A stretch of DNA of 64,000 bases from Leclercia adecarboxylata (lineage in GTDB: Bacteria; Pseudomonadota; Gammaproteobacteria; Enterobacterales; Enterobacteriaceae), in NCBI GenBank assembly GCA_901472455.1, contig LR590464.1:496001-560000 (forward strand). Direction: 5' to 3'. Shown here piece after piece: positions 7,099 through 30,294 of the stretch. The translations under genes were made by a program, and so were the position numbers. Under the pieces are notes generated by a model, which was given only the letters and a program-made list of their open reading frames with translations, did not search any database and had not been told where the DNA came from. Within the stretch, counting starts at the first letter, position 1, and every line of letters starts with the position of its first letter.

Positions 7099-7114
7099 TC
7101 ATTCAGAGGCCAGC

Positions 7115-8373: not shown

Positions 8374-8487
8374 AAAACATTTCTGCGTCTGTTCGGTAAG
8401 TTCACCCGCTGGTACATCACCCTCATTATCTTTATGGCCTGCCTGCTGTTCATTATCACCACCCTGGGCAATATGGCTGGCTTCTGA
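8371..8487 (+). CDS. Small single-pass membrane protein
   Basis: A 38-residue protein starting MKTFLRLFGKFTRW with one strong membrane helix (YITLIIFMACLLFIITTL). A basic amphipathic N-terminus followed by a helix suggests N-in topology. It overlaps the preceding gene's corrected stop by a few bases, so translation is probably coupled. Without that correction the two read as one fused ORF, which is misleading. Confidence 0.55.
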   Translation: MKTFLRLFGKFTRWYITLIIFMACLLFIITTLGNMAGF

Positions 8488-8499
8488 CAGGACACTCCA

Positions 8500-8965: not shown

Positions 8966-8999
8966 TTCTGCCTCACTCTTTCAGGTTAAAGGAGATTTA

Positions 9000-9342: not shown

Positions 9343-9433
9343 CACCGCGCGCTTTTCCACCTTTCTTTTCTATCTGAACGCCTTGCTCAAACGAGCAGGG
9401 CGTTTTCTTTTGCCTCTTTTAAAGGAATTACTC

Positions 9434-10255: not shown

Positions 10256-10331
10256 CTATCTGCGTGCCTCACTGATATCCCGTTTGATCACTCCCACAAA
10301 CTTAACTCATTAGTGAACAAGGAATATTCCA

Positions 10332-10817
10332 ATGACCGACATTGTTAACTTTAACGACACCCTCCCGTTACAGCCACAACCTGCCGATGCCGGTTGTGCG
10401 CCAGCTCTGACCGCCATCCTCGTCCCGGACGAACAGCGTGTGGAGTTCTGGCCGCAGCATTTCGGCACCATACCGCAGTGGATAGCCCTTGAACCGCATA
10501 TTTTCGCGTGGATGTACCGCTTCTGTGAGGACTACAGCGGGGGTATCTGGAACTTTTATACGCTCAGCAATGATGGCGCGTTTATGGCTCCGGAGCCCGA
10601 CGGTGACGGCGATAAAAAATGGACGCTGTTCAACATGATGAATGGTAACGGTACGGAGATGAGCTCAGAAGCCGCAGGTATAGCGGTCTGCCTTATAGCT
10701 TACAGCCACCATGCCTGTCGTACGGAGTGCGATGCCATGACAGAGCACTATTACCGTCTGCGGGACTACGCGCTCAACCATGCGGAATGCAATGCCATCA
10801 TGCACATCATTGACTGA
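10332..10817 (+). CDS. Antirestriction protein, KlcA/ArdB family
   Basis: An intact 161-residue homologue of ArdB/KlcA/YfjX. These proteins block type I restriction enzymes in vivo without mimicking DNA. Family hallmarks are RVEFWPQHFGTIPQW, FCEDYSGGIWNFYTLSN, GAFMAPEPDGD, MSSEAAGIAVC and SHHACRTECDAM. The first 30 residues are a variable extension. A good ribosome site (AAGGAATA) precedes ATG 10332. Its presence on an island that also carries hsdR material fits the entry of mobile DNA into restricting hosts. It should act in the cytoplasm. Confidence 0.9.
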   Translation: MTDIVNFNDTLPLQPQPADAGCAPALTAILVPDEQRVEFWPQHFGTIPQWIALEPHIFAWMYRFCEDYSGGIWNFYTLSNDGAFMAPEPDGDGDKKWTLFNMMNGNGTEMSSEAAGIAVCLIAYSHHACRTECDAMTEHYYRLRDYALNHAECNAIMHIID

Positions 10818-10827
10818 AGACAGCCCA

Positions 10828-11294
10828 ATGAAACAATAGCTGCCTTTATTTGCCTCAGACCTGCCGGCATCCGCACAGCAGACAATCCGGGAGGCGTTAG
10901 CCCTGCTGAAGTGCCAGTTGCGCGAACCCAGCGCATCGTTTACCTCCGGTCAGGCAGTACGTGACTGGCTGCGTCTGCATCTCTCCATACTTGAGCGCGA
11001 AGAATTTGCCGTACTCTTCCTCGACAACCAGCATCGCCTGATTACGCACGAAACGTTGTTCACCGGCACCCTGAACGGCACAGAAGTTCATCCCCGCGAA
11101 CTGATAAAGGCCGCCCTGAAGCACAATGCTGCCGCCGTTATCGTCGCCCATAATCACCCGTCTGGCCATGCCGAGCCCAGCGTGAGTGACAGCAACATCA
11201 CCCGACGTCTGAAAAACGCTCTTGAGCTTGTCAATATTCCGACTGCTGGACCACATGGTGGTGGGTGGAATGGACATCGTGTCGCTGGTTATAA
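10828..11294 (+). CDS. radC: RadC-family (YeeS/YfjY) protein with an amber codon
   Basis: About 155 residues. The JAB/MPN metal site is complete in outline: an upstream Glu (LEREEF), HNHPSG and a following Asp/Ser (PSVSDSNI). An in-frame TAG at 10837-10839 is the fourth codon (MKQ[13 protein letters not shown]), where a Gln codon would fit. A one-base shift near 11240 is needed to read [17 protein letters not shown]. The natural stop is probably TAA at 11292, because the uncorrected frame runs into the next gene. It is the RadC-like member of the antirestriction-radC-DUF987-CbeA string. Biochemical function of island RadC copies is not settled. Confidence 0.75.
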
Positions 11295-11314
11295 CTCAGA
11301 AGGAAAACCACCCA

Positions 11315-11536
11315 ATGAAAATCATCAGCAAACGCCGGGCAATGGCGATATACCGTCAGCATCCGGAGGTCCGGTTATTTCGCTTCTTCACCGGGAAATA
11401 CATGTGGTCCGGCAGTATATGTCACTATGCCGGTCAGGAGGTGCAGGATATCAGCGGTGTGCTGGCAGTATTCGCAGAACGCCGCCAGGACCGCAACGGT
11501 CCTTATGTCGTATTACGCAGCGTTACCCTGAGTTAA
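11315..11536 (+). CDS. DUF987 protein (YeeT-like)
   Basis: A 73-residue intact protein: [20 protein letters not shown], then [12 protein letters not shown] and [20 protein letters not shown], ending VLRSVTLS. This matches the small YeeT/YkfH/DUF987 family that always sits between RadC and the YeeU-type antitoxin in CP4 islands. Function unknown. The start follows AGGAAAACC. Confidence 0.85.
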
Positions 11537-11558
11537 CGCATAGTTAAGGATTACTAAA

Positions 11559-11909
11559 ATGCAGAACATAACCAATGTAGCAAACCATTATATTGCCGAA
11601 CCCTGGTGGGGGCTTAAGCCCACCGCCACGCCGTGCTTTGGCGCACGACTGGTGCAGGAGGGTAACCGGGTGCATTATCTGACCGACCGGGCCAGTATCG
11701 CCGGGACGTTCAGCGACGATGACGCGCTGCACCTGGATCAGGCCTTTCCGTTGATATTCAAGCAACTGGAGCTGATGCTCGCCAGCGGAGAACTCTCTCC
11801 CCGGCATCAGCACTGTGTCACCCTATGTCACAATGGGCTCACGTGCGAAGCCGATACTCTTGGCAGTTGTGGTTACGTATACATCACTGTTTATCCCACT
11901 CAACGTTAA
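11559..11909 (+). CDS. cbeA: CbeA/YeeU-family antitoxin
   Basis: A 116-residue antitoxin of the type IV CbtA/CbeA system. CbeA homologues stabilise MreB and FtsZ filaments and so oppose the cognate toxin without binding it. The family signature is present: WWGLKPTATPCFGARLVQEG, RVHYLTDRASIAGTF, QHCVTLCHNGLTCEADTLGS and GYVYITVYPTQR. The frame is intact, with an AAGGAT ribosome site. The toxin gene that should follow is broken, so this is now probably an orphan antitoxin. Confidence 0.9.
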   Translation: MQNITNVANHYIAEPWWGLKPTATPCFGARLVQEGNRVHYLTDRASIAGTFSDDDALHLDQAFPLIFKQLELMLASGELSPRHQHCVTLCHNGLTCEADTLGSCGYVYITVYPTQR

Positions 11910-11929
11910 TTACTTTCACGAGTACCATA

Positions 11930-12016
11930 ATGAAATTTCTACCTGCAACAACTCTGCGTGCAGCGAAGTCATCCCATCACCTGTCGCTATCTGGCAAATG
12001 TAACTTACTCATCTGC
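11930..12016 (+). pseudogene. cbtA: cbtA (YeeV/YpjF) toxin remnant
   Basis: Just after cbeA, an ATG opens MKFLPATTLRAAKS, the typical CbtA N-terminus. In the shifted frame PSPVAIWQM and then LTHLL follow, which is also CbtA-like. A TAA splits WQM and LTHLL, and the rest of the toxin (normally about 120 residues) is absent. Unlike most breaks in this window, this is a large loss, so the toxin is dead. Confidence 0.7.
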
Positions 12017-12061
12017 TATCGTCATAGTCTTTACCAAGATGACTGTAAACGGTGACTTAAA

Positions 12062-12085
12062 GTCCGCTTCGTGTCAGAAGCAGAC
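12062..12085. repeat. 24-bp hairpin element, copy 1
   Basis: GTCCGCTTC ... GAAGCAGAC: an imperfect inverted repeat of 24 bases that recurs at 12535. The two copies bracket the 96-residue membrane protein gene. Confidence 0.6.
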
Positions 12086-12168
12086 AGTCGGCTCAGACTT
12101 TGATTACCTTGTTACATGCTGTAAATTATGTGCTTACTGTTGCAAACTTTATACCTTAAGGAGTATTA

Positions 12169-12459
12169 ATGACAATTGAAACTATAAAAATATTAGCTGC
12201 AATAAGCAGTATTATTGGCTCTGGGATTCTTGCTTATCGAGTTACAGGAATCCTATCAGCACTTACTCTTGTGGCCAATTGCCATGAGGTAAACATTCAA
12301 CAATTAATGCCAAATAATAAGGGGGATATCCATTATTTCGCCAATGCACCGAAGCACGTTGAAAAGGCACAAAAGAAAACTCTTCTAATCACGGGGTTTA
12401 TATTTCTAATTGCATCTGGAATTTTGCAGCTCATAGCTTTGATGATGGCAAATTCATAA
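12169..12459 (+). CDS. Two-helix membrane protein, unknown
   Basis: An intact 96-residue protein starting MTIETIKILAAISSIIGSG after an AAGGAG ribosome site. It has an N-terminal helix (about 6-35), a short soluble loop (HEVNIQQLMPNNKGDIHYF) and a C-terminal helix (LLITGFIFLIASGILQLIAL). Codon use is more AT-rich than in the CP4 genes to the left. It occupies the place behind cbeA where cbtA should be and is bracketed by two copies of a 24-bp hairpin. No family is recognised. Confidence 0.6.
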   Translation: MTIETIKILAAISSIIGSGILAYRVTGILSALTLVANCHEVNIQQLMPNNKGDIHYFANAPKHVEKAQKKTLLITGFIFLIASGILQLIALMMANS

Positions 12460-12534
12460 CAAGGCACATATATTGCCAGTGGTGCCACTGGGACGATTTG
12501 CATTTCACCTTAACCCCATAAATTTGGCTTTAAT

Positions 12535-12558
12535 GTCCGCTTCGTGCTAGGAGCGGAC
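12535..12558. repeat. 24-bp hairpin element, copy 2
   Basis: GTCCGCTTC GTGCTA GGAGCGGAC, an inverted repeat closely similar to the copy at 12062 and in the same orientation. Confidence 0.6.
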
Positions 12559-12635
12559 GTTGCTAGTATCAGTTCATGTTAGTCAATGGGACTAGGTCAC
12601 TGGCATCAATGAACCTCGTCTCATCTTGTCGTTGC

Positions 12636-15600
12636 TTAATTACAGTGCATATTAAGTAAAAAATGACAGAACATAACTTCACGTTCCCCTCTTAATCTGG
12701 TTTCAGTACAAACCCAAAGATTGTCTGTAACGGATTCTTCATCAATTATTACAGCTAGGCAGTCTTTTTTGTAACCTGTATAGTCCGTTTTCGAAATAAA
12801 ATTGTGATATCCCACCGTAAGTGTGCTGAAATCTTTAACATCACAATAGGCGACCATGAATACCGGGCTCAGGGCTTCAGCATCGTATCCTGATACTTTA
12901 TTGAGATGTTCGGTTATAACTTTTTTGTTGAGTGAAGAGAGGCGAAATGCTTCGAAAATTGCAATCCGTCTGTTTTTGCTGTCGGTAATCAAACCATCAC
13001 TCTCACCGGGGCTTTTTCCTGATTCAGAGCTGCCGGTACGTTTCTGATCGCGAAAACCAATTCTCGCTTCAGCCATTCGCATATCGACAAGAGAAGCAAA
13101 CCAGTCGTTGATGAGATCTTCATGAATAATTTTATTGAGCTGTCCATCAGTGCTCTGCTGGCTTTGCAGGTTCTTTTTCCTCAAAAGCAACTCACCAGCA
13201 ACCTCAGTAATTACTTTTTTCAAAAACATCTCTTTCGAACGGCCACCTCCAGTAATCTGTACATAATCCTCGAAGCTACCACCGGTGATACGTAAGTAGT
13301 GCTGTCTGAGTTGATCAATACTGCGCTGACTGGATTCTGCCATTGCATGGACAATGTCGAGAACAGAGTTCTGATTAGGAAGAGCTTGACTGAGCTGGGT
13401 AATCAGTTCGGCCAGCCCAACATCATGTTCGCTGAGAATGAGATTACACTCTCGAAACTCATTAATTATTTGAGACGCGACAAGGGGTTTACCTCGTTGG
13501 ATAAGACCTTTGCAATATGGCAGGAGGATTTCCCGTGTTCTGTGCTGCTCACCTGTGAGTTTTCTCCAGTATTCATCCGCCTGTTGCTGATCGCCGACCT
13601 GTATCATAACGTCAAGCACCATGGCTACCCAGCTTGCAGCCATCTGATCCGGTGTAATGCTGCTCGTCTGCTCTAGAAACTTATTCAGAGCGCGACGACG
13701 CGCGTCTTTATTCTGGCTATCTGACAGCTCGGCTATATGCCCTCTGAACAGAGTAAATGCGAAGTGTGGCGCATTGACCTCTGCGCAAAGAGCTTCCATA
13801 TATCGTACCGTTTTGCTGGGCTCAATCTGACAGAATGCTATTGCGATGATATAACGACGGAACTGTTCACATTCCCTGAGCTGGCGACGGACTATTTCAT
13901 GCCCCGGTAAGCCAGTCAGGCCATCAGGTAAAGAGATACGTAACACTACTTCTTCTAAGGCATGAGGATCTTCGTGACCGGAAAGGTAGGCTGTCAAAAG
14001 GGTGTATTTATAGTGATAGGTTTCCCATAGGTAGATAGTTTCTTTGAACTGTATGTGGGAGTGGCCTCTGAAACGTTCAAGCAAGGGTTTTGCAGCAGAT
14101 AGAACTCTTTCGGCAAGTTCCATATGACTATTTTCGCAGGCATGAATAAATGCCGTTTCCAATGATTTTAGGCCAAGCTTTTCGTCCCTGAGCTCCTGTC
14201 GGTCGAGAATTGCATCATGAAGAACCTGTCTTCTTTCATGGATATTACAACGTTGAAGCAGGATATATAGTGAATCAAGCGGAATCATGTCGATACAGCG
14301 TTCCGTAAACTCATCGTACTTTGATGGGGGAAGGTTATTCACAAAAAGGCTAAACATTTTCCACAGGTCTGCTGCCTCATCATTAAGAACAGCGCTAAAG
14401 AGATAGCATCTATCCTCATCATGACCGAATCCAAACGCGCACACGATGTTTATGATGCGCTGCCACGCGCGCGAGCGCTCTTCTTCTTCCAGCGGACCTT
14501 TAGAGATTAGCATCAGGAGTTGCAAATACTGGCAGATAGCTGATACAGCATCAAAGCATCGGTCATGCTTGTAGGTCAGCACGCTAGACCAGCTATCATA
14601 TCGACTAGAAATCCGCAGGATTTCATTAATTCCAATAACTTTTATCAGGCTTTGCCAAGGTAGAAGCGCAAAAAAATTGTCAGATTTAAGGTCTCGTCTA
14701 CGCGTAGCAATGCATTCACAGAATGCATTGCTATAAAAGCGAATCAGGCATTCACCCAGTTGGGGCAACAAGTCACGATACGCAACATCCGTAGATTCGA
14801 GTCGCTGAATAATCCAGAGCCCGAGGTGGTATATACTCCTTTCCCTGATATGTGAAATGCGCCGTTCATATTGTACGGGGATGGTTTCAAGGAAGGCAGA
14901 AGCAACTGCAGCTACGTGCTTATCCTCAAGCTTGTGCATAAAACAGGTTAGCGCCCTGTACTGGAAACTGTCTGTGTTAAGCAACGTATATAGGCCACTG
15001 TTTGTCGGCAAGATAAAGAGATACGTTGAGTAACTTCAGACCGTTATCTGAACGATCTTTTATGGTACGGACATACTCTCTCACCAGCACGTCGAGAAAC
15101 AACTGACTCAGGTCATTGGACACATCATGTCGACGGGTCACAGGCAGCGGATATTCCCGATTGGTCAGATGATAAATTGCAATCTCACATGTTTCAGGCC
15201 TCGATAGTAAAAAGAGGATAGATTTGCAGTTGAAGCGGAGAGGGAGAGCAATGAAGAGCAAATACTTTAGCGCTTGACGTGACTCGGCCAGCGAAAGCAG
15301 ATTGAGCGCAAACGGTTTTGTAGTGAGTGAGTGATGGTCAATGAGTATTACATGATTAAAGCACGCCTGAATGAGCCTGGACAAGGCCCCCCATAGGATC
15401 ACGCCAGTTTCCCCAGTATTGCAATTTTCCTTGAGCAATTATTTCGGCAGGATCGTCAATGTCAGGGAAATGGTAGGCACCATCCAGAGTCTCCCGCAGT
15501 TCTCAGTGTCAGAGGAGCAGGCTCATCTGGCTCATCGGTTTTTATCCGGCATGATACTTTCACTGTCGATGTGTAGGTTTATTTCCAACGTGACAGGCTG

Positions 15601-16420
15601 GTTCAGGCTTGCGAAGTCATATGAGTTTACGGCCTGCTTGTAGATTGTTCTGAGTGGATAACTGAACTCCAGGCGCCGTCTTCACCAGCAATTCAACCTG
15701 ACGTAAGAATTGATCCGTTTCATTTTTCATCAAGCAAGCTGAACTGCACCGGAACAATTGAATGACTCAATGCGCGCACGCAAAGCATCCATTGGCGAAA
15801 AGCCTGTTCAGGGAGAATGACGTCTCAGAAGACACTGCCAGAGATAGGTGCTCTCTAGTTGGGTAAATCGATGCTTTTCAGGATAAATGGCAACCCTTCC
15901 CGCCCTGCTGAACTGCGCTGGGAAAAAGACGATCAAGATGAATATTCCCCAGTTCTTTACTTATGAGAGCAATGAGCTGAGCTTCCTCCATCACGAAATG
16001 AGGTTGAACGTAACCCTTCCGACCAAAGGTAATATTCTGCAAAAGGTTTGTTACCCGAAGAATATCCTCAATGCTCTGATCCAACTGCTTAGATTGCTGC
16101 GATTCACTGCAGTGAATCGCAGCCCATCCTCCGGGAAATGAAATTAATCCCCCAGCTTCAAAAAATGCCAACGAATGTTGGGTGCCAGAGTCAAGAGCTG
16201 AGCCTTCAGAACGTGGCCAAGATAATTCTCCCGCAATCAACGCGGCCACGTTGCACCGGTTTAACTCGGGGGTTGCAAGTGTTGCGTCAACCAAAAAAAT
16301 GGCAAGCGCATAGGCCTGCTGGTGTACGAAAAGATTGCCATTACCGTGCGAAACTTGTCCTGAATTATCATTAAGTAACTTGAGAAGAAATGCCCAATTT
16401 TCTGAATGTGAAGTGTCCAT
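12636..16420 (-). CDS. Very large uncharacterised protein (about 1260 aa), frameshifted
   Basis: Three long pieces on one strand belong together. The N-terminal 180 residues run from MDTSHSENWAFLLKLL. A middle section (15.0-15.88 kb) needs five or six frame changes, with readable blocks such as PEQAFRQWMLCVRALSHSIV and SYDFASLNQPVTLEINLHID. An uninterrupted C-terminal 780 residues follow from about 14.98 kb. The long central part is alpha-helical and repeat-like with no P-loop that I can find. Near the C-terminus (about 12945-13020) GESDGLI followed by RIAIFEAFRL has the spacing of a PD-(D/E)XK nuclease core (D...ExK), but the Lys is replaced by Phe-Arg. The start at 16420 was chosen over the upstream in-frame ATG because of GAGACATAAA. 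I do not recognise the protein; a defence role is suggested only by its position. Confidence 0.6.
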
Positions 16421-16682
16421 TTTATGTCTCTGCCCCATCCGTATTTTAGCCAATATTACTGGCTGAACCGCTGACCGGTCATTGTTTTTTCACCGTATGG
16501 CCCGCTCTCCGTTCGTTTACACATAGCAACGTTAGTAACGCATCCTGCGCAGTAATAACAATTGCGAGCTTCCGCTCCTCGCTCATAGCAGCGCTGCAAG
16601 CGCTTAGGTTCTGCCACCTTGTACCAGAAGCTGTCAATGCTAGTATTGCGATGTATCGATCAACGAGTGAAGGTTAGGAGAA

Positions 16683-16928
16683 ATGATTGTAACCAGGGAA
16701 AGCATGAAAAAATGGATCATCGAGTGTCTTCAGGAACGGGGTGGTAGGGCTTGGCCACGTGAAGTTTCAAAGTATGTATGGGACAGCTACGAGGCTGAGC
16801 TTAGGGATTCCGGCGATATGTTGTATACGTGGCAATATGACATTCGTTGGGCAGCTCAACAATTGAGAAACGAGGGTACTCTAAAACCAGTAAATAGACG
16901 CAGAGATTTGCCATGGGAACTAGCATAG
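16683..16928 (+). CDS. Small winged-helix-like protein
   Basis: An intact 81-residue protein: MIVTRESMKKWIIECLQERG, GGRAWPREVSKYVWDSY, then WQYDIRWAAQQLRNEGTLKP and RRRDLPWELA. The order helix-helix-strand, with 'RWAAQQLRNEG' as recognition helix, resembles the N-terminal winged-helix domain of Mrr-type restriction proteins. It is divergent from the giant gene and separated from it by about 260 bases. DNA binding is likely but unproven. The ribosome site is TAGGAGA. Confidence 0.6.
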   Translation: MIVTRESMKKWIIECLQERGGRAWPREVSKYVWDSYEAELRDSGDMLYTWQYDIRWAAQQLRNEGTLKPVNRRRDLPWELA

Positions 16929-17185
16929 CAAAGCAAGGGTTAGCGTTCATTTCGCAGCCAAATCTGACTTTGTTCTGAGTGGATGGGAATTGATATCTCT
17001 GAAGAAAACGTTCCTGCCTGCCTGAATCTTGCTTTGACAGCCATATCGGTGTTCTACTGGTATGGCTTTATACCTACTCGCGATGTCTATTTTTTATACG
17101 GATTTTAACTTGTGGGTACAAGTGCGGGTATAAATAATTATTCCTGCTTGAAAACTAAATTGATATCAGTCTATTGGGTGTGAAA

Positions 17186-17207
17186 TTCGAGTCCGGCCTT
17201 CGCACCA
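17186..17207 (+). other. Attachment site: 3' end of tRNA-Leu (leuX)
   Basis: TTCGAGTCCGGCCTTCGCACCA equals the T-loop and acceptor 3' end of leuX (anticodon CAA) with one G missing from GGC, again a homopolymer difference. Only the last 22-23 bases are present, not a tRNA, which is what an att site looks like after island integration. Just upstream, GTGGGTACAAGTGCGGGTAT resembles the arm repeats of P4-type integrase sites. It marks the likely right end of the island. Confidence 0.75.
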
Positions 17208-17218
17208 TAAGATGCAAA

Positions 17219-17250
17219 GATAAGTCGCTTAAGGGCGGCTTTTTTTTGTG
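17219..17250 (+). terminator. Terminator following the tRNA-Leu end
   Basis: AGTCGCTTAAGGGCGGC makes a short stem-loop followed by eight T. Such a terminator belongs to the tRNA gene that the att site duplicates. Confidence 0.6.
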
Positions 17251-18017
17251 TCTGGAATCCGTAATACAAAATTTTTCAAGATTGTATTTGAAAATGAATA
17301 CGCATGAATAAGGCACTCATTATATCGGTTATAAATATATGTTTGGATTTTTATGCTGTATTATTAATGATTCTAAATTCACATTAATATATGAAAACTA
17401 ATCCATCAGATTCTGATGTATGTCAAAATGAGTTATAAGGATATTATTATAATCATTGGCTCTTATCAATCGGAAGAGCATTCATTTATTCTTTACTATA
17501 AATGTTGAAAATACTAGCTATATGAATTATACATTGAATTACCAAAACATGATGGTTGCTGGATCTAGTTCAGTACCTTTTTATTAAAAGAGTTATAAAG
17601 ATATTTTTATTACTAGTTTATGTCCATGGTTTATGTCCATGTGAACATAAGCATGTCGTGAAAAAAGAATAAATTAAAAGGTTATTACCGCTGAGACTGT
17701 TACCAAGGAGTGTCTTTAACATATTGATTTTATTGATATATTTTTTTACATGACACTACATAATATATATCCACGCCTTACAGAAGAACCTCCATAACTG
17801 TCATTCGAACTTTATCAAAAACTTTTGGTTATGATAATACACTCAATTAAATAAAAGTGAATTTATTTCAATGTAATCAATTGGTTAAGTTTTTCTGGGG
17901 TTATCTTTATTACGAAACAAATATCATAATAGATGTGAACCAGAGGGGGTTAAGATCTAGTAAGGCTTTCTCTCATCTGCTAAAGTTGGATATGAGTGAT
18001 AATAGAGAAAGATACCA
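17251..18017. other. AT-rich intergenic DNA
   Basis: About 770 bases with GC clearly below 30%, much lower than the DNA on either side of region 2. No ORF with a ribosome site is visible. It presumably carries the promoter of the methyltransferase gene. Base composition points to recent transfer. Confidence 0.5.
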
Positions 18018-19345
18018 ATGAACGACATCGATAAAGACAATATGCTTTTGAACAAAGTCATCTCCAGCTCAAAAGGTGACAAAGCTTATTGGTCATTTAA
18101 GGGACGAGCAAAAAGACAATATTGTCACGCTTTAATTCAATACCCTGCCATGATGGTCCCAGCCCTGCAGGGAGAACTGATTGATGCTGTATTAGAAATT
18201 GATTCCAGCATAACAAGTATCATCGATCCTTTTGTCGGTTCCGGGACTACTCTTGGTGAAGCTATGTGCCGAGGACTTGATTTCGTTGGAATGGATATTA
18301 ACCCTCTCTCGATATTGGCATGTGAGGTTAAAAGCGGCCCTTTATATATTGAGGCATTAGAAAAAAAAATGTGTTAATCTAATAGAAAAGATACGTACTG
18401 ATCTACAAGAAAATGTACCTGTTAAAATAAACAACATTGATAAATGGTTCACTAAAGAAGTCCAATTGGACTGAAGTAAAATATATAGGGCTATTCAGCA
18501 AGAAGATTCTAAATGGGCTAGAAAGATATTTTGGCTATGCATGAGTAATACTGTACGCGCTGTATGTAATTCAAGAAGTTCAACTTTCAAACTACATATT
18601 AAATCTACTGATCAAATTGAGAATACACCAAATACATTAGAGGTTTTTACAAAAAATATTGAAAAAAGCTTAATTGCTCTTAGTGAGCAAAAAAATGTCC
18701 TTAAAGAAATGGATAGTTTAAATAAATCGTTATCAAAAAGCAATGTTAAAATAATACATGCTGATACATCAAAGAAGATTAATAAAAAAATACAATGTGA
18801 TCTTCTTGTAAGCTCTCCGCCTTATGGAGATAATAATACTACTGTCACATATGGCCAATTTTCTTATTTGTCTTTGAAATGGATTGATGAGCGAGATATA
18901 GATAATTTAAAAAATCAAAGGATTGCTGGAAACGCAAAATAAAATTGATTCTAGCAGTCTTGGCGGTTCCCTTAAAGGGTCAAGTGAAAAGCTTGAATTA
19001 TTAAAGCATAAATCTCCAACATTATTAAGAATTGTAAAAGAGATTTCCGCTCTTAATCCTCAACACGTTAAAAAATTAGTGACATTTATTTTTGACCTAG
19101 ATCTATCTTTAGATAACGCATTATTATACTTACGAAAAAATGCTTATATGATATGGACGTTAGGTAATCGAAGAATTTCTAATATTGAAATACCATTAGA
19201 CAGAATCATGAGAGAGATTTTAGAGCATAAAGGTTGTGTATTTATTCATCAAATCGAAAGGGAAATATTGTCCAAAAGGATGGCTATGAAAAATAGTTTT
19301 GCAAATACGATGGATAAAGAATTAATTCTAATGATGCGAAAATAA
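18018..19345 (+). CDS. SPPY-type DNA methyltransferase, frameshifted
   Basis: About 440 residues across three frames. The SAM-binding motif I is DPFVGSGTTLGEAM (about residue 70) with VGMDINPLSI as motif II. The catalytic motif IV is SPPYGDN (about 18815). SPPY favours N4-cytosine, though amine methylases with this motif vary. Shifts lie near 18370, 18470 and 18935. The tail (EREILSKRMAMKNSFANTM) is basic. It is on AT-rich DNA and ends 50 bases before the GHKL ATPase on the same strand, so the two are likely one operon. No restriction nuclease partner is recognisable nearby, making the ATPase the only candidate effector. Confidence 0.75.
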
Positions 19346-19394
19346 TTTTATCTAAAGCGGCTTTATTATATTTTGAGAGGGAGTTTTTTTATAT

Positions 19395-21279
19395 ATGGTT
19401 TTCTACTACACTGAAGTTTGGAGGAAGAATAATTGAGGAGCTCTCTCAAAAAATTCCTTCATCATTATTTGCTTTAAATGAGTTAATCAAAAATTCATAT
19501 GATGCATTCTCTCCCAGATGTGGTCATTACTATAGTCCCATCCAAATTAATGGTAAAAATATCTGATACCGGTAACGGTATGTCAGAAGAAGAAATACAT
19601 TCCTTGTTTCATATTTCAAAAAAGTACTAAGAAATATGGAAATGAAATATGTCAAAATGGCATAACTAGAATCATTCAAGGTTCTAAAGGTCTGGGCTTC
19701 TTATCTGCTTTTAAATTTGGTGATGAAGTTGAATGGAAAACATGTAAAAACGGCATCCGTAGTACTTTCTCTGTTCAAAAAGCGGATTTTAATAAATAAA
19801 GATGATGTATTATCAACAAAAAAAATAAAAACCATATGTTTCTGAATGTGAAAATAGCCAATTGTTTTATGTGATATATAATTCGGCGAAAGGACAAATT
19901 AATTTTTTCCATAAGGGAGAGTTAATTGATCAAAACACCTTTTTCGATAGATCGTACCGATTACAGCATTGATATTGACTTAGTAATATTTTTATTTGGT
20001 AAAGGTAAAAGTGCTCGCACGATATCTAACCTTCATAAAAGATTGCACGATAATGCTCTCTATCCTTTAATATATGTAAATAAAAATCTCTTTAATAATA
20101 CTAATTTTGTTTGATCCCGATTTACTTAGAAAAAGAAGCTCTGGTTCATCTTTACCTCAAATGATAGGCCGAGTATTAATTCTTAGCCAAAACAAAAAGA
20201 TGGAATTTAACTCTGATAGAACTTTTTTTGTAGAAAATAATATAACTAAAAGTATTGTTAGTAATCTTCAGAAATTGAATGAAACTATTCAAATTAGAGG
20301 TTCGGAATTAAAAAATCAATTAAAGAGTAATCCTTCTTCATCATTAACTGGAAAAGCATTCCCAAACGATGAAAATAAAGTCATCAAAAACAAACCTGCC
20401 TCAATATTGATTGATAGGAAAAAGAATATAAAATTCTCTATCCCTTCAGAACAAATAGATTTAAGCGAATACATTTATTCTGTAAAGGATAGTAATGGTA
20501 ACGATGTAAATAAGAATAATGTAAAAATAAGCATTGATAATTTTGAAATTAATAACAATATATTGGGGGCGTTAGAGGAACCTTCTGAAATGGAGGTGGT
20601 TTTTCGGTATGAAGATAGTGTAACAGGGCTTGTTTCAGCAAGTATCTATCTTTTCTTTGAGAAAAAGCTTTCTAATATATCAGGCAATAAAGAAGATAAA
20701 TCATTATTTACGATACAGTCTGCATCGGATTACACTATTAAAATTGGAACAGTTTCTTCCATTATTTATGCTATAGATAAATTGTATTCTTTGAGAGAAA
20801 AAGATGGCTATCTTCCACTAATTGCGTGTTCAATTCGATCAATTTTTGAAATATCACAAGACAAGCTTATCAGAACACATCGATTTTTATTTCCACAATT
20901 AAAGATTCAATCATATATTCCTGAAGCTAAAAGAGAAATGAAAGACAAACTTCTTGGTAATATTATACATATAATTTTATTAATCAAGAAAAATCCTAAA
21001 TTAAGCACAAAAATTGCTGAAAAGCTAGATATTAGCTACTCAACATTTTCAAACTCGCTAAATGTTGATGAATTCAAAACTGCAGTTAAGTATTCACATA
21101 TTGGAGCTCATCAATCTACTAAATTTTTATCAAAACCAAAAATAGAGGTTTGTGCGGATTCTTGTGGTTTATTTGCAGTGATTTGTGATGTTTTGATTAA
21201 TATGGACAAAAAAGATATTAATGATCTTAATATAGTGAGGATTGATGCTCATGATATAAATCAATGCTTTGTGGGTTAA
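19395..21279 (+). CDS. GHKL (MORC/Hsp90-like) ATPase, frameshifted
   Basis: About 625 residues. The Bergerat fold is clear: N box ELIKNSYDAF (about 19480), G1 box DTGNGM (19570) and GSKGLGFLSAFKFG (19690). After several shifts the intact C-terminal 390 residues begin SGSSLPQMIGRVLILSQNKK and FNSDRTFFVENNITKSIV, a transducer-like region. An Ig-like strand-rich part follows, then a helical C-terminal domain (IGAHQSTKFLSKPKIEV). The start at 19395 follows GAGAGGGAG. Bacterial MORC-like ATPases are known to be linked to restriction-modification loci. No helicase or nuclease domain is visible. The exact function is unknown. Confidence 0.75.
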
Positions 21280-21302
21280 TCCAACATCACGCCGCGCTTT
21301 TT

Positions 21303-21347
21303 ATGAAGGCTGTATTATACAAACATACAGCCTTTCATAGTTTTTTT
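21303..21347 (+). terminator. Terminator of the methyltransferase-ATPase unit
   Basis: ATGAAGGCTGTAT and ATACAGCCTTTCAT form a near-perfect 12-13 bp stem about 20 bases after the ATPase stop, followed by a run of T. Confidence 0.8.
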
Positions 21348-21715
21348 TTAAAAATCGTGACTGTTCAATTTACTGAAAATACCCTTGGGTGATAGACATC
21401 ACTTAAATATTATATTAAATCATTGAAATGGTTATTTATCTAATGTTGGCGAGTGAAGTACCACCCTAACATAACTTTGATTTCAGATTTAAATCTAAAG
21501 AAAATAAACTATGCACATAGGCTGACCTTGTCCTATTTATTTCCTGTGAGTACTAAATTAGTTATTTGTTCACATAAATAATAGATAGTTATAGCAATAA
21601 ATTTATTAATTAAAATTAATTAATTTTATCTGATTTCGTGAAATAGTTTTGCGCCATAAAGATGATATTTTTATGGCGCAAAGTGAAATAATGAGAATGT
21701 GCTCAATATTAATAT
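21348..21715. other. AT-rich intergenic DNA with a perfect hairpin
   Basis: Low-GC DNA without a gene. TTTGCGCCATAAA (21648) and its exact reverse complement TTTATGGCGCAAA (21670) form a 13-bp stem with a 9-base loop. It sits about 35 bases downstream of the HNH gene's stop on the minus strand and could terminate it. Confidence 0.5.
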
Positions 21716-22589
21716 TTACCCCCTGAATACCTGCCGCCTATGCCATTCCACAAATCCCTCAAGCGGAAAATCTCCCTTTATCATTGGCAATCCAATCTGC
21801 TTCCCTGAAAAATCCCAGAACAGCTGCCCAACGATTCCATTCCCGTTCACGCCCTTCGACACCAATACCCGCATATCCTCATCCAACCCAATCGACCCTT
21901 TATCAAACGCCTTATGGTGAATCGCGCAGAGCGCCAGCCCATTAGTAATCTCACACGGTCCACCATGCTGCTTCCATTTGATATGTGCCGCTTCAAGCGC
22001 AACAGAAGAATGATCGTGCCGCATGTTGAACCCACAGATCGCGCATTGGTAGTTATAAGCACGTAGCACCTGCTGACGGAACTGAGGATCGCGAACCTTA
22101 CGGATCTGCCTGATATCAAACCCCATCTCGTCAGCGATCTCTTCCTGAATACTTTCCGGGAAATGGGCTTCAAGAATCTGCTGCGCCAGCGAGCCGATAA
22201 GGTTTTTGTTCCTTACTCAGCAGCGCATAATGTTGCTCATCAAACCCACCCGCGACGTGATGCTTTACCAGTTCTCCAGCGGGTGGCTGCCTGCTGCTAC
22301 CCGTTGTTGAACAAAACTCGTCATTCTGTAGCTCCCAGAAGCCATCCCCTTTAAGCCGCCAGAACGGCATATCGGGGCGGTACTGCGCGCGTTGCGGACC
22401 AAAACGCTCCAGCAGGCTATACAGCTGATCGCGGATTTCAGTACCGTAATCGAACAGGCGAGTATGTCCCTGCTGGTAGTTCGCCAGCACATACAGTAGC
22501 AATAACGGTTTATGCGGCGCACGCTGATCCCCTTTGCGCCAGATAGTGATGTCGGCAATTGCCTGTTCGAGTGTTTTGCTGGAAGCCAT
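21716..22589 (-). CDS. Phosphorothioate-dependent HNH restriction endonuclease, frameshifted
   Basis: A type IV enzyme of about 290 residues that binds DNA with phosphorothioate backbone modification through a sulfur-binding domain and cuts nearby. The N-terminal SBD pattern is visible: WRKGDQRAPHKPLLLLYVLA, then LLERFGPQRAQYRPDMPFWR and LKGDGFWEL. The C-terminal HNH has CAICGF, then ALEAAHIKW, ITNGLALCAIHHKAFDKG and the final Trp-His. One extra base near 22208 breaks the frame between LLSK and NKNLIGSLAQQILEAH. I chose ATG 22589; a TTG at 22631 with GGTGGGG upstream is an alternative. No dnd or ssp modification genes are in the window, so it would act against incoming modified DNA. Confidence 0.85.
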
Positions 22590-22659
22590 CGCGTTACGGA
22601 AGAAGGTAAATAATTGCGATGATGCTCGCAAAACCCCACCCGATCAACCTACCAGCTTC

Positions 22660-22802: not shown

Positions 22803-23108
22803 TTAATGCAGGATTGTCAGAAGGTCATACCTAAAGTTAGCAGACTTCCTAATCAAGTTATTAGATAGCCGAAGGAATCAGGATTCAATTAAACCATTTT
22901 AATTCAGGGTGCTTTTTATCCTACTCAAACACTGCGCTAAATTAACCATCAACACTAAACAACTAATTACCTCAGGTTCATTCCATCACACTCTATATAC
23001 GCAAAATCCCCCGCATCTAACCCCCCAAACTCCGTTTATTAGTAGTTGCCTAACCTATGCAAAGCCATATCATTCTGCCGATAACAAATCTCAATTTAGG
23101 GAATGAAG
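22803..23108. other. Intergenic, no reliable gene
   Basis: About 300 AT-rich bases before the zinc-finger membrane protein. One short ORF (22909-23106) has a low-complexity, Pro/Thr/Ser-rich product and no ribosome site. It should contain the promoter of the gene at 23109. Confidence 0.4.
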
Positions 23109-24777
23109 ATGAAAGACGCGTGGCTGGATACGTGCTCTACAACCATCCAGGACTTCGTGGAACGCTCTACGAGGCTACAGCCAGATAATCTTGATCTGGA
23201 ATTGGTCGAAAAAATCGATTTTGACTACCAGATTAACCTCAGTCTGCATTTTCGTATTGAGACGACAGACCACACTCAGGTGGGAAGAGTCAGCGCCGGG
23301 AACGGCACCCGCGTTTTTACCAGTACTTTCCAGTACGCCGAGGCTCTCCAGGCTGAAACCAGCGCTGTCTTATCCCGTGCAGAAACCCTTCGTGAAGCTC
23401 AGGCGCTGGTCCTTTCCCATCCTTACGGTGCACTTAAAAAAGATCACGAAATCTACTCCCATCCAACACGCCTCTGTTTAACTGAAGACTGCACGAACTG
23501 TAATGGACGCGGGCAGGTCAATTGCTCCTGGTGCTATGGTACTGGTCGCGTGAGCTGCACCACCTGCGGGGGAAGTGGGCAGGTACTGGAACAGCGAAGC
23601 CATTTCGATCACTACACCAATCAGTACCGCACGGAGAGCCACTATCGGATGTGCTACACCTGCTCAGGCGGTAAGGTGAACTGCAACCACTGTAGCGGCT
23701 CGGGAAACCAGCGCTGTTCCCCCTGTGACGGAACAGGTGAAACAACCCGCATTACCCGGCTTTCCAGCGTTGCCGTGCCTAAATATCAGTTGATCTACCA
23801 TCGTGAGGATGTGCCGACATTCATTAAAGATGGCCTCTACAAAGCGGGCATCCCGGAACTGGCGAGTTATGGTGCCGTTGAGCTGGCCGATTCCGGTATT
23901 GATGAGGGTTGCGTAACGTTAATTTTTTCTACAACGCCAGCATCCCCTTCGCCAGGTTTACGAGTCAGCTGCGCCAGGCTCAGCTTGCTGAACAGCCTGT
24001 TAACTGGATTGTTTACGGGCGTCGTCCGCAGATACTGGATGCGGGACATGTCGTTGAGTTGATGTTAAAAACGATCTCAATGAGCTTGTTTATCGAAGCA
24101 CCAGAGGGAAGTTGCTGAATCCGCTTGTTGCGGCGTGTAGCCGTAAAACGGTGGCCACATTTATGGAATCGGAAGCCCATCAGGACATGCTGGATGCGAA
24201 CCGCGCGGGTAAATCCGGGGAGATGCTCCGCGAAGCGATGAATCGTGGGGTCACTACGACCTATATTGATGAAGCCCTGACCAGCCTGAAAGCCATTACC
24301 CAGGCTGTGCAAAACTGGTCGGTGGTGAAGTGGGCAATCTTCAGCGCTGTCATCATCTATCTTTTTATGCCTCTGTATACTGCTTATGGCGACATCTGGA
24401 TCAGCGACATTGCGACAGGACGGGTTTATCTTACGCCGTTCCTGCGCTGGGATAGTCAGCAGAATTTACTCGCTTCCCTGGAGGTACTGGCGCGTTACTG
24501 TGGCTTGTTTATTGTCATCGCTGCCGTTGTTATCTCGTTCCTGGGGTATTTATGGCGCAGGGGCTGGGTCCGCTGGCGAATGGGTCAGCATCTGTCTAAG
24601 TGGGCAGTTAACGAGAAGATTTTACGTAGCGGTTGGTTCAAGAGCCTTCTTCTGACCAGCCTGCTCACGACGTCCCTGTTACTGTTTTTCCCGATCTGGG
24701 TGACAAATGAGGGGGAACTCTTTGGGCAGTATTCCTTAATTGAATTACTTCGCTGGGTTGCTCAGTCCCTGAGATAA
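23109..24777 (+). CDS. Membrane protein with DnaJ-type zinc fingers, frameshifted
   Basis: About 555 residues. After an N-terminal domain of about 125 residues comes a cysteine-rich block (about 125-210): CTNCNGRG, CSWCYGTG, CTTCGGSG, CYTCSGGK, CNHCSGSG and CSPCDGTG, i.e. six CxxCxGxG-like units as in DnaJ zinc fingers, but without a J domain. Frame changes lie near 23920 and 24075. The C-terminal third has four membrane segments (WAIFSAVIIYLFMPLYT; GLFIVIAAVVISFLGYLW; SLLLTSLLTTSLLLFFPIW and one weaker). ATG 23109 is preferred to 23103 because AGGGA is then correctly spaced. It may be a membrane-tethered chaperone-like or zinc-binding protein; its function is not known to me. Confidence 0.65.
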
Positions 24778-25515: not shown

Positions 25516-26200
25516 TCAGGTCGCCAGGCCCACTCCCATCGCCCCCCTTATAATCGGAATCGGCGTCAACAAATGCTGATACATCAGCTCCCCCGCCTTA
25601 TCCGCATCCCGCGCCAGCACCGCATCCAGCAGCCTCTGGTGCTCCCCATGCTTCTCCTCTAACATCGCCACCGACAACACCGTCTTCCGCAACCACACAT
25701 ACCGATACCGCGCCGCCAGATCGAACAATCTTTCCCGCATCTGCAACAAATACCGCGACCCACACCCGGCCACAATCGCCGTATGAAACGCCTGATGTCG
25801 CTGGTCCCACTCGTCCAGCATGGTCTCGCTGGCGTCGCGGGATTCCAGCTTGTTCAGCAGATGCATCCGGGGCGAGGAGGTCGGCTTCCCACTCTTCGCC
25901 GCCGCGTTCGATGGCGAGGCGGACCAGCATCGCCTCCATATTGGCGCGGGCATCAAAGATATCGAGCAGCTCCTGTTCGGACATCGGGGCCACCCGGTAG
26001 CCTTTCTGGTTAATGACCGTGACCAGCCCCTCGGCAACCAGCTGCGACAGCGCTTCGCGCAGCGGGCCGACGCCCAGCTCATACCGGGAGGTCAGCAGGC
26101 TCATCCGCAGCTTCTCATCCGGGTGATACACCCCGCGGATAATGTCGTTCTTCAGCCAGCGGTAGCCGTCGATAGCCGTCGCCTGGGAAATAATGGTCAT
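25516..26200 (-). CDS. glaR: GntR-family repressor CsiR/GlaR, frameshifted
   Basis: Glutarate-responsive FadR-type repressor of the gla-gab operon. The N-terminal winged helix (LKNDIIRGVYHPDEKLRMSL, GVGPLREALSQLVAEGLV) is typical, and the FCD effector domain follows after a one-base shift near 25880 (METMLDEWDQRHQAFHTAIV-like stretch, RYLLQMRERLFDLAARYRYV). The start at 26200 has CAAGGAGC upstream. It lies last in the cluster it controls, 45 bases after gabT, as in E. coli except that gabP is missing between them. Confidence 0.85.
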
Positions 26201-26245
26201 GGTCGTGCTCCTTGAATACGGCCCGGCTCGCACCGGGCGTAAAGA

Positions 26246-27529
26246 TTAGTCCTGCTTCGCCTCGTCAAAACACGCGGCGATAATCGCCAGCCCCTGCTGG
26301 AGCTGTTCTTCTTCAACGGTGAGCGGCACCAGGATGCGCAGCACGTTGTGGTACGGGCCGCAGGAGAGCAGGATCAGCCCTTTATCCCGCGCACGCGCCA
26401 CAATCTGCGCCGTCAGGGCGGCGTCCGGTTTATGGTGGTCGCCCGCTTCAAACAGTTCGATGGCGATCATCGCCCCCAGGCCGCGAACGTCGCCGATCTC
26501 AGGATGTTTTTCAGCGATAGCCAGCAGGCCTTCGCGCAGGGTGTTGCCCAGTTTATTGGCTTTGCCCAGCAGATCTTCCTGCTCGAACACCTTCATCACC
26601 GCCAGCGCGGCGGCACAGGCGATCGGGCTACCGGCGTACGTGCCGCCCAGCCCGCCCGGGGCGATGGCGTCCATCACCTCGGCGCGTCCGGTGACGCCCG
26701 CCAGCGGGAAGCCGCCAGCAATGGATTTAGCGAAGGTGGTGATATCCGCCGCCACGCCCATCTGCTCCATGGCGAAGAAGGTGCCGGTGCGGCCCGCGCC
26801 GCTCTGTACTTCATCGGCGATTAGCATGATGCCGTACTCGTCGCACAGGTCGCGCAGGCGCTGCATAAAGGCCGGGGAGGTGGCATAGAACCCGCCTTCA
26901 CCCTGGACAGGCTCAATCACGATAGCGGCGATATCTTCCGGCGCGGCATCGTTCTTGAAGATGCGATGGATGCTGGCGATGGCGTCGTCATCGCTGATGC
27001 CGTGCAGGGCGCACGGATACAACGCGCGATAGACGTGGCCCGGCATCAGCCCCATGCCTGCTGAGTAAGGATTCACTTTCCCGGTCAGGGAGAGGGTGTA
27101 GTGGGTGCGGCCATGATAGGCCCCGGTAAAGGCGATGGTGCCGTTGCGCTTCGTCGCCGCGCGGGCAATCTTCACCGCGTTCTCCACGGCTTCGGAGCCG
27201 GTGGTCACCAGCAGGGTCTTTTTCGGGAAATCCCCCGGCACTTTCTGGTTCAGGGTTTCGCAAAGCTCCAGATAGGGTTCATAGGCCAGCACCTGGAAGC
27301 AGGTGTGCGACAGCTTTTTCAGCTGCTCTTCCACGGCGCTGACCACGTCAGGATGGAGATGCCCGGTGTTCAGCACCGCAATGCCCCCGGCGAAATCAAG
27401 ATATTCACGGCCTTCGACATCCCACACCCGGCAGTTCTCGGCGCGGGCGGCAAAGATAGGGTGGATCTGCCCCACGCCACGGGGTACGGCATTGCTACGA
27501 CGCTGCATTAACTCTTTGTTGGTGCTCAT
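26246..27529 (-). CDS. gabT: 4-aminobutyrate aminotransferase
   Basis: PLP enzyme transferring the amino group of GABA (or 5-aminovalerate) to 2-oxoglutarate, giving succinate semialdehyde (or glutarate semialdehyde). It is intact at 427 residues, the usual length. Visible motifs are the glycine-rich phosphate site (TTGSEAVENAVKIARA), AYHGRTHYT, the Asp that holds the pyridine nitrogen (LIADEVQSGAGRTG) and the PLP lysine in TTFAKSIAGGFPLAG. MSTNKELMQRR is the normal N-terminus, so ATG 27529 is the start. It follows gabD by 14 bases. Confidence 0.95.
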   Translation of the reverse strand: MSTNKELMQRRSNAVPRGVGQIHPIFAARAENCRVWDVEGREYLDFAGGIAVLNTGHLHPDVVSAVEEQLKKLSHTCFQVLAYEPYLELCETLNQKVPGDFPKKTLLVTTGSEAVENAVKIARAATKRNGTIAFTGAYHGRTHYTLSLTGKVNPYSAGMGLMPGHVYRALYPCALHGISDDDAIASIHRIFKNDAAPEDIAAIVIEPVQGEGGFYATSPAFMQRLRDLCDEYGIMLIADEVQSGAGRTGTFFAMEQMGVAADITTFAKSIAGGFPLAGVTGRAEVMDAIAPGGLGGTYAGSPIACAAALAVMKVFEQEDLLGKANKLGNTLREGLLAIAEKHPEIGDVRGLGAMIAIELFEAGDHHKPDAALTAQIVARARDKGLILLSCGPYHNVLRILVPLTVEEEQLQQGLAIIAACFDEAKQD

Positions 27530-27543
27530 TGGATGCTCCTGAA

Positions 27544-28993
27544 TTAAAGGCCGATGCACATATATTTGATTTCTAAGTAATCTTCGATACCGTATTTAGA
27601 ACCTTCCCGACCCAGGCCAGAGGCTTTAATGCCGCCGAACGGGGCCACTTCATTAGAAATAATGCCGGTGTTGATCCCGACGATGCCGTACTCCAGCGCC
27701 TCGCCCACGCGGAACACGCGGCTCAGGTCGCGGGCATAGAAATAGGCCGCGAGGCCAAACTCGGTATCGTTGGCCATGGCGATAACGTCGGCTTCATCTT
27801 TAAAAACGGAACAGCGGTGCCAGTGGGCCAAACGTCTCTTCTTTTGCCACTTTCGCATCACCGGGTACATCTACCAGAATAGTCGGCTGGAAGAAGTTGC
27901 CGCCTAATTTATGCAGGGACCCGCCGGTCACCACGCGGGCGCCTTTCTCCACGGCGTCGGCAATGTGTTCTTCCACTTTATCAACCGCCTTGCTGTCGAT
28001 CAGCGGCCCGATGGTCACGCCCTGGGTCAGGCCGTCGCCGATCTGCATCTTATCCACCGCCTGCTGGAGTTTTTCGGCAAAGTGATCGTAAACGCCGTCC
28101 TGCACGTACAGACGGTTGGCGCAAACGCAGGTCTGCCCTGCGTTGCGGAACTTCGACGCCAGCGCCCCTTCCACGGCTTTATCAAGATCGGCATCGTCAA
28201 AGACGATAAAGGGCGCGTTGCCTCCCAGCTCCAGCGACACTTTTTTGATGTCTTTCGCGCACTGGGCCATCAGCTGGCGGCCAATCTCGGTCGAGCCGGT
28301 AAAGGAGAGTTTGCGCACCAGCGGGTTGCCGGTCAGCTCGTTGCCGATGTCCGACGCCGAACCGGTGACCACGTTAAACACCCCGGCGGGGATCCCGGCC
28401 CGGCTCGCCAGTTCGGCCAGCGCCAGCGCGGAGTAGGGCGTCTGGCTGGCAGGTTTGAGCACCATGGTGCAGCCTGCCGCCAGAGCTGGCCCGGCCTTGC
28501 GGGTGATCATCGCCGCCGGGAAGTTCCACGGGGTGATGGCCGCCGTTACGCCGATCGGCTGCTTAATCACAATCAAACGCTTATCTGCCTGATGGCCCGG
28601 AATGGTGTCGCCGTAGACCCGTTTCCCCTCTTCGGCGAACCACTCTATAAAGGAGGCGGCATAGCTGATCTCGCCTTTGGCTTCCGCCAGCGGTTTGCCC
28701 TGCTCAAGGGTCATCAGCCGGGCCAGATCGTCCTGGTTAGCCATCATCAAGTCGAACCAGCGGCGCAGAATGGTGGCGCGCTCTTTGGCCGTGAGCGCGC
28801 GCCAGGCGGGCAGGGCGCGGTTCGCGGCCTCAATCGCTTCGCGGGTCTCGTCGGTGCCCATTTTCGGCACGCTGCCCAGGGTCTGGCCGTTCGCCGGGTT
28901 GGTCACGGCGAGGGTGTCACCGCTGTGGGCGTCGCACCACTCACCTTCTATATAAGCCTGCTGGCGGAATAAGCTGGGATCGTTGAGTTGCAT
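27544..28993 (-). CDS. gabD: Succinate-semialdehyde dehydrogenase (NADP+)
   Basis: Oxidises succinate semialdehyde (and glutarate semialdehyde) to the acid, the step after GabT. It is about 483 residues if a one-base shift near 27825 is bridged. Aldehyde dehydrogenase hallmarks: PWNFPAAMITRKAGPALAAG, FTGSTEIG, the catalytic Glu in SLELGGNAPFIV and the catalytic Cys in NAGQTCVCANRLYV, then EVAPFGGIKASGLGREGSKY. The pieces overlap cleanly, so the shift is most likely a sequence error. It is part of the glaH-lhgO-gabD-gabT operon. Confidence 0.93.
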
Positions 28994-29016
28994 GATGGCT
29001 TCCTGTCTCAGAATGA

Positions 29017-30283: not shown

Positions 30284-30294
30284 CCGCTCAATTC

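Follow-up and report, generated by a model that had tools for sequence, protein, structure and literature searches.

A probable relic of a mobile two-gene module, DNA methyltransferase plus MORC-like ATPase, in Leclercia adecarboxylata

Introduction

A stretch of 64,000 nucleotides from Leclercia adecarboxylata (GenBank assembly GCA_901472455.1, contig LR590464.1, positions 496,001 to 560,000; hereafter the window) contains, side by side, sequences related to an SPPY-type DNA methyltransferase and to a GHKL ATPase. A first-pass annotation made from the sequence alone had considered this pair the best candidate in the window for a new defence or epigenetic system, and the question raised by the locus is whether the two genes work, whether they travel together elsewhere, and whether such a unit is new. 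Our reading is that the window carries a decayed copy of a mobile defence module consisting of a methylase and a MORC-like ATPase, to which we give a probability of about 0.6. Methylation-gated defence, as the kind of unit concerned, is considered quite likely.

Condition of the two genes in the window

Homologs of the methyltransferase (18018-19345) and of the ATPase (approximately 19408-21279) are arranged head to tail on the plus strand, as first described, but neither gene is open. Relative to the proteins of Photorhabdus khanii (locus L002), the window methyltransferase covers residues 1-441 save 118-120, spread over three frames and with an in-frame stop, and the ATPase spans residues 5 to 688 in six pieces from which residues ~131-198 are absent (Table 1). 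The list of stop-to-stop open reading frames gives the same picture. The ATPase is the more heavily damaged of the two.

The P. khanii methyltransferase (441 amino acids) matches the PADLOC type II model PDLC03360 at 6.3e-251 over residues 1-441 and also Pfam N6_N4_Mtase; judged by this intact relative, the window gene belongs to the type II family of DNA methyltransferases (PADLOC MTase_II). Intact relatives of the ATPase match Pfam HATPase_c_3 (2.3e-15 and 8.7e-16) and are GHKL ATPases, built from a GHKL domain, an S5-like domain, a long helix, a beta domain and an all-helical C-terminal domain. The MORC/Hsp90-like character that had been proposed was confirmed for the N-terminus, and a Foldseek search with the full ATPase model gave only Hsp90- and GyrB-type proteins among the best 50 matches listed. 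The N-box, the two glycine boxes and the final GT motif are present in all four intact relatives; the window copy is without the segment that carries the GT motif, and its HATPase_c_3 hint at 19557-19796 reaches 0.014 only.

Might the actual strain carry an unbroken, functional pair, all of the breakage coming from base-calling or assembly error? The genome is a single contig of 5.06 Mb with a completeness of 78%, compared to 99-100% in the relatives examined, and open reading frames (ORFs) of at least 300 amino acids cover 39.9% of it (14 samples of 20 kb) versus 62.7% and 66.3% in two congeners (7 samples of 20 kb each). Next door, in the core stretch at 25537-31274, comparison of csiR, gabT, gabD, lhgO and glaH with their E. 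coli counterparts revealed five frame changes in 5.6 kb, none of them in gabT; gabP, the sixth E. coli core protein compared, had no match in the window. These broken core genes indicate that single-base errors are widespread in the assembly. The unit itself has seven frame changes where the core rate predicts 2.9 (P = 0.03), which is no strong excess and says little because the unit is rich in homopolymers (16 of at least six bases in 3.26 kb, versus 3 in 5.74 kb of the core stretch). Most frame breaks of the unit fit an error-rich assembly. However, the gap of about 68 residues (approximately 200 bases) does not, since it is unlike single-base errors and removes a motif kept by all four intact relatives, and the in-frame stop likewise differs from a single-base indel. 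The gap leads us to regard the window copy as a relic or, at most, as one that was poorly assembled, with misassembly as the caveat; a pair fully intact in the strain is unlikely. Frame breaks are common across the assembly, core genes included, and any pseudogene call in the window needs care.

Relatives, pairing and mobility

The first-pass annotation had suggested searching genomes for a conserved pairing of the two proteins. Such a search found the two genes adjacent in five of the six loci with a relative of the full-length ATPase type (the window, L002, L004, L076 and L086); in the sixth, L068, the contig stops just upstream of the ATPase. The expected lack of a recognised nuclease or helicase gene was also seen: in L002, L076, L086 and the window alike, the two genes are direct neighbours with nothing intervening, and the flanks of these loci were scanned in part. 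A 572-amino-acid ORF upstream of the pair in L076 had no Pfam match.

Both genes are intact and adjacent in P. khanii, where, by our own reading of the gene names, they sit between guaA and the core genes that follow. At the same site in P. thracensis (L003, 7545-10473) the methyltransferase ORF is nearly whole, no ATPase ORF of at least 90 amino acids comes after it, and the ORF found there instead is one that we take to be transposase-like; this is a natural loss of the ATPase with the methyltransferase kept. Another genome, G531, has an intact pair adjoining TniQ and a Mu-type transposase gene. On the viral contig of L086, which reads like a prophage, the pair occurs in reverse gene order directly behind a repressor-like gene, while in Lacticaseibacillus thailandensis (L004) it is present in pieces. 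On a second viral contig (L068, 647-8111) the ATPase is terminal, and an MvaI/BcnI-type restriction-modification (R-M) pair lies about 2.5 kb away. Because of these occurrences in P. khanii, G531, L086, L004 and L068, the unit is a real but rare mobile two-gene module.

Two side observations concern these loci. Between guaA and the P. khanii pair there is a short frame (L002, ~7037-7126) that may be a remnant of the delivering element and that, as we read it, begins like a tyrosine integrase. L068 holds both partner kinds of one methyltransferase family within one locus.

The ATPase had no match in the three congeneric genomes of our samples. Apart from the genome under study, full-length relatives were found in 1 of 295 genomes of the family (that of P. 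khanii), 1 of 295 of the order and 0 of 321 of the class, in samples that overlap. The other nine sampled-genome matches (L077-L085) were N-terminal only; a methylase gene is adjacent in seven of these nine (five C5-type, two N6-type), the scanned neighbour in L085 is a helicase, and the L078 neighbours fell outside the scan. A DNA-level search with 17800-21400 gave no match in the collection 'ecoli_genomes' (20,395 records) or in 72,556 plasmids. At the protein level, the ATPase matched six plasmid records by its N-terminus only and no phage record, and the methyltransferase search in phages found none. Viral contigs yielded nothing in a first ATPase scan, and profile scans then found L068 and L086.

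The methyltransferase family and its partners

Relatives of the methyltransferase were examined in 12 plasmid loci, fetched from 14 matching records (H16 and H17 were left out). An adjacent MvaI/BcnI-type nuclease was recognised in nine of them by annotation or similarity (L020, L022-L029), two (L018, L019) have a GHKL protein of 828-842 amino acids and a third gene, and the neighbours in L021 are of no assigned family. MvaI/BcnI methyltransferases make N4-methylcytosine. In the phylum of Lacticaseibacillus, where 7 of 348 sampled genomes carry a relative, partners were the GHKL ATPase (L004), an EcoRII-C nuclease (L072) and an MrcB/AAA gene near L071; nothing restriction-like was seen among the scanned neighbours of L070 and L074, L075 being outside the scan.

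A tree of 23 methyltransferases was computed, leaving out L029, a near copy of L022, and the two in pieces (L004 and the window). A branch supported at 100/99 separates seven enzymes with a present or former MORC-like ATPase neighbour, together with L021, from the other 15. This split by partner argues that the partner of the methyltransferase family has been exchanged: judged by their sequences, the putative partners on one side of the branch are mostly nucleases, and those on the other side are MORC-like ATPases of two or more kinds. Among relatives of the window methyltransferase, the closer ones have MORC-like ATPases beside them and the more distant ones MvaI/BcnI nucleases. Some counts weigh against so simple a story, in that the ATPase-type label needs three changes on the tree when shuffled labels need 2.9 on average, and the MvaI label needs five. 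The EcoRII-C label of L073 was assumed from its near copy L072, and L075, L026, L086 and L027 are on long branches.

Further arrangements were noted in passing. The methyltransferase family lies beside an EcoRII-C-type nuclease in L072 (4078-6159), where it was scanned, and beside an ORF of the same size and place in L073 (4628-6709); in L071 (5336-9416) a relative is near an MrcB_N/AAA_5 (McrB-like) gene that matches the PADLOC candidate PDC-M26A and is another possible partner. The viral contig L017 (5983-11619) carries a methyltransferase of 59% identity, then an 839-amino-acid protein with HATPase domains at both ends, then a 595-amino-acid protein with no meaningful Pfam match. This three-gene unit, a sister of the methyltransferase-ATPase unit, is beside a gene reading like a phage integrase, and in the tree its methyltransferase groups with those of Photorhabdus and G531 at 100/100. 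Viral contigs scanned with a wide methyltransferase profile gave a further 23 loci that were not used, the match there being confined to 28-96 residues around the S-adenosylmethionine (SAM) motif.

The C-terminal domain of the ATPase

Folding of the ATPase C-terminus, suggested at first pass, was carried out and predicted a domain of helices with no strand. The PADLOC profile PD-Lambda-5_A (PDLC04001) matches the end of the window piece 20101-21279 at 1.7e-6, and five ATPases in all (the window piece, L002, L068, L076 and L086) match PD-λ-5_A with this domain, at E-values from 6.4e-5 to 1.9e-14; L002 and L086 do so only with the domain scanned alone, and L004 was outside the scan. The match is to the last ~120-145 ATPase residues only, and none includes the N-terminal half of PD-λ-5_A. 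The one PD-λ-5_A-like protein that was fetched, L120, had no GHKL or other Pfam match, and its N-terminus looks, as we read it, like a ParB-type domain. The claim of kinship with PD-λ-5_A is made because of these profile matches; aligned by hhalign with the C-terminus of L120 as a single sequence, the domain gave a weak match (1.8% probability). When the sequences of solved structures were searched with this domain, no match fell below 0.04.

Two other identities for the domain were considered and not adopted. A hidden nuclease is unlikely given a model with no strands. HEPN membership was not accepted either: five of the six ATPases lack the motif R-x4-6-H within their final 200 residues, the remaining one (L004) has a single R-x4-H that is not at the conserved histidine, and there is no profile similarity to the domain of the L084/L077 type. 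The motif is present in the comparison proteins L084, L077 and L120.

L084 (5301-7971, minus strand) and L077 (4394-7104, plus strand) are themselves two-gene units of a C5 methylase and a GHKL ATPase, with the HEPN motif as RNPAAH and RNPIAH respectively. The L084 ATPase ends in Pfam Ymh and is matched by PADLOC REase_II models at 4.6e-32, and such REase_II 'restriction enzymes' may be HEPN effectors.

Setting of the unit

The low GC content that had been noted was confirmed, at 0.304 for 18018-21279 against 0.474 for window positions 1-17186 and 0.592 for 25001-64000; the flanks 17203-18017 and 21280-21700 are about as AT-rich as the unit. A terminator behind the pair had also been described, and the stem-loop there is followed by a T run (Table 1), although a simple terminator scan missed it as the loop exceeds the length limit of that scan. 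An attachment (att) site was said to lie immediately beside the unit. There is indeed an att-like repeat, which has a single further exact copy in the genome, 28.2 kb leftward inside the tRNA-Leu(CAA) gene; however, the unit is outside the interval bounded by these copies, starting ~0.8 kb from it toward the core genes csiR-gabT-gabD. The type IV restriction gene said to be the neighbour also stands in part, since HNH_2 (2.3e-10) matches at 21716-22643 and the other half matches a PADLOC type IV model (the PADLOC matches of the gene are PDLC04132, 1.3e-23, and PDLC03662, 1.8e-8), but the gene is split across two frames.

Two more features of the window were recorded. The interval that separates the HNH gene from the core genes (23103-24777) holds a gene with DnaJ-type CxxCxGxG cysteine repeats and, after it, an apparently membrane-bound ORF. 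Within the tRNA-Leu island (12636-15438, minus strand) a large protein extends over two frames (791 and 153 amino acids), the 791-amino-acid piece having no Pfam match.

Table 1. Coordinates in the window of the methyltransferase and ATPase pieces and of neighbouring features
Feature	Position	Strand	Remarks
tRNA-Leu (CAA) 3' end copy, right-hand att-like repeat	17186..17202	+	28.2 kb island on its left
Methyltransferase piece 1	18018..18377	+	SAM motif DPFVGSGTT; 81% to P. khanii residues 1-117; PF01555 3.4e-6
Methyltransferase piece 2	18379..18942	+	Catalytic SPPY, other frame, one in-frame stop; 72% to P. khanii residues 121-305
Methyltransferase piece 3	18911..19345	+	Third frame; 77% to P. 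khanii residues 298-441
ATPase GHKL domain	19408..19787	+	Three pieces, three frames; P. khanii residues 5-40, 40-75, 71-130
ATPase gap site	19787..19799	+	P. khanii ~131-198 (~68 residues, GHKL motif GTxIx[IV]) without counterpart
ATPase S5-like region	19799..20099	+	Two pieces, two frames; P. khanii residues 199-241, 229-298
ATPase linker, beta domain and C-terminal helical domain	20101..21279	+	One open piece; 57% to P. khanii residues 299-688
Terminator-like stem-loop and T run	~21301..21350	+	Fold -16.0 kcal/mol, 3' of ATPase gene
HNH / type IV-like restriction gene, neighbour outside the unit	21716..22643	-	Two frames

Possible mode of action

The module probably protects bacteria from phages, in a manner related to the known defences that join a methylase to cell suicide. 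The methyltransferase would mark one short motif in host DNA as self, and the ATPase would be an ATP-driven clamp dimer on DNA, in the manner of MORC and MutL. An unmarked motif in entering phage DNA would license the clamp, whose motion might turn on the C-terminal helical domain and so halt the infection. Action of the ATPase on unmethylated DNA was already proposed in the first-pass annotation, and it is something we infer as well. As in PD-λ-5, an outcome resembling abortive infection (Abi), with harm to or arrest of the infected cell, seems likelier than cutting at the motif, and for these steps in detail, abortive outcome included, we would offer somewhat less than even odds. In this strain, the loss of an essential ATPase segment would have disarmed the system.

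A more general proposal is put forward tentatively. It states that a MORC-like clamp detects the absence of methyl marks and triggers, no DNA being cut, a non-canonical helical effector that PD-λ-5 also has, and that the methylation check is a plug-in front end with swappable effectors, these being an MvaI/BcnI nuclease or at least two MORC-like ATPases.

Alternatively, the unit could be a true R-M system with the ATPase as its restriction enzyme, binding unmethylated sites and cutting DNA, a role suggested by the NCBIfam name of its N-terminal relatives ('BbrUII/HgiDII family restriction enzyme'). Its N-terminus does match NF050001 at 1.1e-15, as well as PADLOC REase_II models, and the MvaI/BcnI nucleases beside nine of the 12 plasmid relatives of the methyltransferase would mean that the ATPase occupies the place of the nuclease. 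However, the NF050001 match scores 57.2 bits against a cut-off of 550 and covers residues 27-195 only, which places the protein outside that family; the paired methyltransferase is of the N6/N4 type by Pfam and not C5 as in HgiDII/BbrUII; and the all-helical, strandless C-terminal model is unlike the folds of PD-(D/E)XK, HNH and PLD nucleases. We consider this explanation improbable. An epigenetic or housekeeping device, with the methyltransferase acting in gene regulation and the ATPase compacting the DNA of a mobile element as MORC proteins do, would agree with the absence of a nuclease from the unit and with the entrapment and condensation of DNA by C. elegans MORC-1 (described in part of PMC8277788), but is very improbable in view of the patchy occurrence, with no ATPase match in the three congeners, of its location next to transposition genes, on a prophage-like contig and at the border of an island, and of the defence-type C-terminal domain matched by PD-λ-5_A.

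A mobile module for methylation-gated defence, decayed in this strain, stays our preferred reading. With one methylase and one MORC-like ATPase that has a built-in effector, the pair offers close to the minimal context for studying whether unmethylated DNA is sensed by a MORC clamp and what the clamp switches on, and the PD-λ-5 link gives a testable phenotype. The window copy, as a relic, is itself unsuitable for such work; the intact relatives L002, L076 and L086 are suitable. The connection of MORC-like ATPases with methylation-linked loci dates from 2008 (sections of PMC2292703), and a passage of PMC8011034 called bacterial MORC biochemistry poorly understood as late as 2021.

Comparison with known systems

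Among the papers listed by searches of the open PMC literature, no title or abstract opening describes this combination of methyltransferase and ATPase, and the DefensePredictor paper (PMC13092281) touches the matter in figure legends only. The MORC and paraMORC proteins of R-M loci (sections of PMC2292703, Iyer 2008) share with the window-type unit the GHKL and S5 ATPase, a family-specific C-terminal extension and an adjacent methylase. They differ in their usual helicase and nuclease partners, absent here, although the same sections mention a minority of MORC-methylase loci without helicase, and the window-type extension is unlike the RE-fold or TIR extensions given there. The paraMORC-HEPN (Ymh) fusions, to which L084 belongs, and L077 by its motif, likewise have a methylase followed by a GHKL ATPase with a C-terminal extension; the 2013 HEPN survey (sections of PMC3710099) placed such GHKL ATPases with C-terminal HEPN (Ymh) in R-M loci and proposed a PrrC/RloC-like action. 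L084 and L077 have a C5 methylase and RNP[AI]AH (L084 also Ymh), whereas the window-type pair has an N6/N4-type methylase and is without the motif, and a profile comparison of the two kinds of C-terminal domain detected no similarity.

The two-component-like HEF_HK/Response_reg_2 units, which occur beside methylases (a passage of PMC8011034), resemble L017 (59%), L018 and L019 (36%), where a relative of the methyltransferase is followed by a GHKL protein of 828-842 amino acids that, in those scanned, carries a HATPase domain at either end. Membership of L017-L019 in that kind is only likely. Unlike the window-type unit they have another ATPase and a third gene of 586-598 amino acids, with no meaningful Pfam match in the two of three scanned. 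VcSduA Shedu (PMC12137116, main text) is similar in that a GHKL ATPase is fused to a C-terminal effector and both are required for phage defence; its effector, however, is a PD-(D/E)xK nuclease, and the word 'methyltransferase' is absent from that main text.

The MvaI/BcnI R-M systems use the same methyltransferase family, with 27-33% identity over 86-100% of the length in the nine MvaI-partnered plasmid loci, but their nuclease is missing from the window-type unit and the ATPase is in its place. Also among the closest systems is PD-λ-5, an RM+Abi-like phage defence of E. coli prophages demonstrated by experiment (PMC9519451) in a strain deleted for the mrr region, which is likewise compact, methyltransferase-containing and prophage-borne, and whose A protein has a C-terminal domain of the same kind; the window-type ATPases differ by their GHKL N-terminus, the likeness to PD-λ-5_A being confined to the C-terminus. 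The unusual minimal pair described at first pass is thus a conserved two-gene pair, but a less isolated one, given its MvaI/BcnI methyltransferase family and its PD-λ-5_A C-terminus. Its candidacy as a new system is weakened by the methylase and GHKL units, GHKL-HEPN fusions included, that were published in 2008 and 2013 (in the sections cited above). The known kinds paraMORC/R-M and PD-λ-5 cover the unit as a variant, and it is not categorically new.

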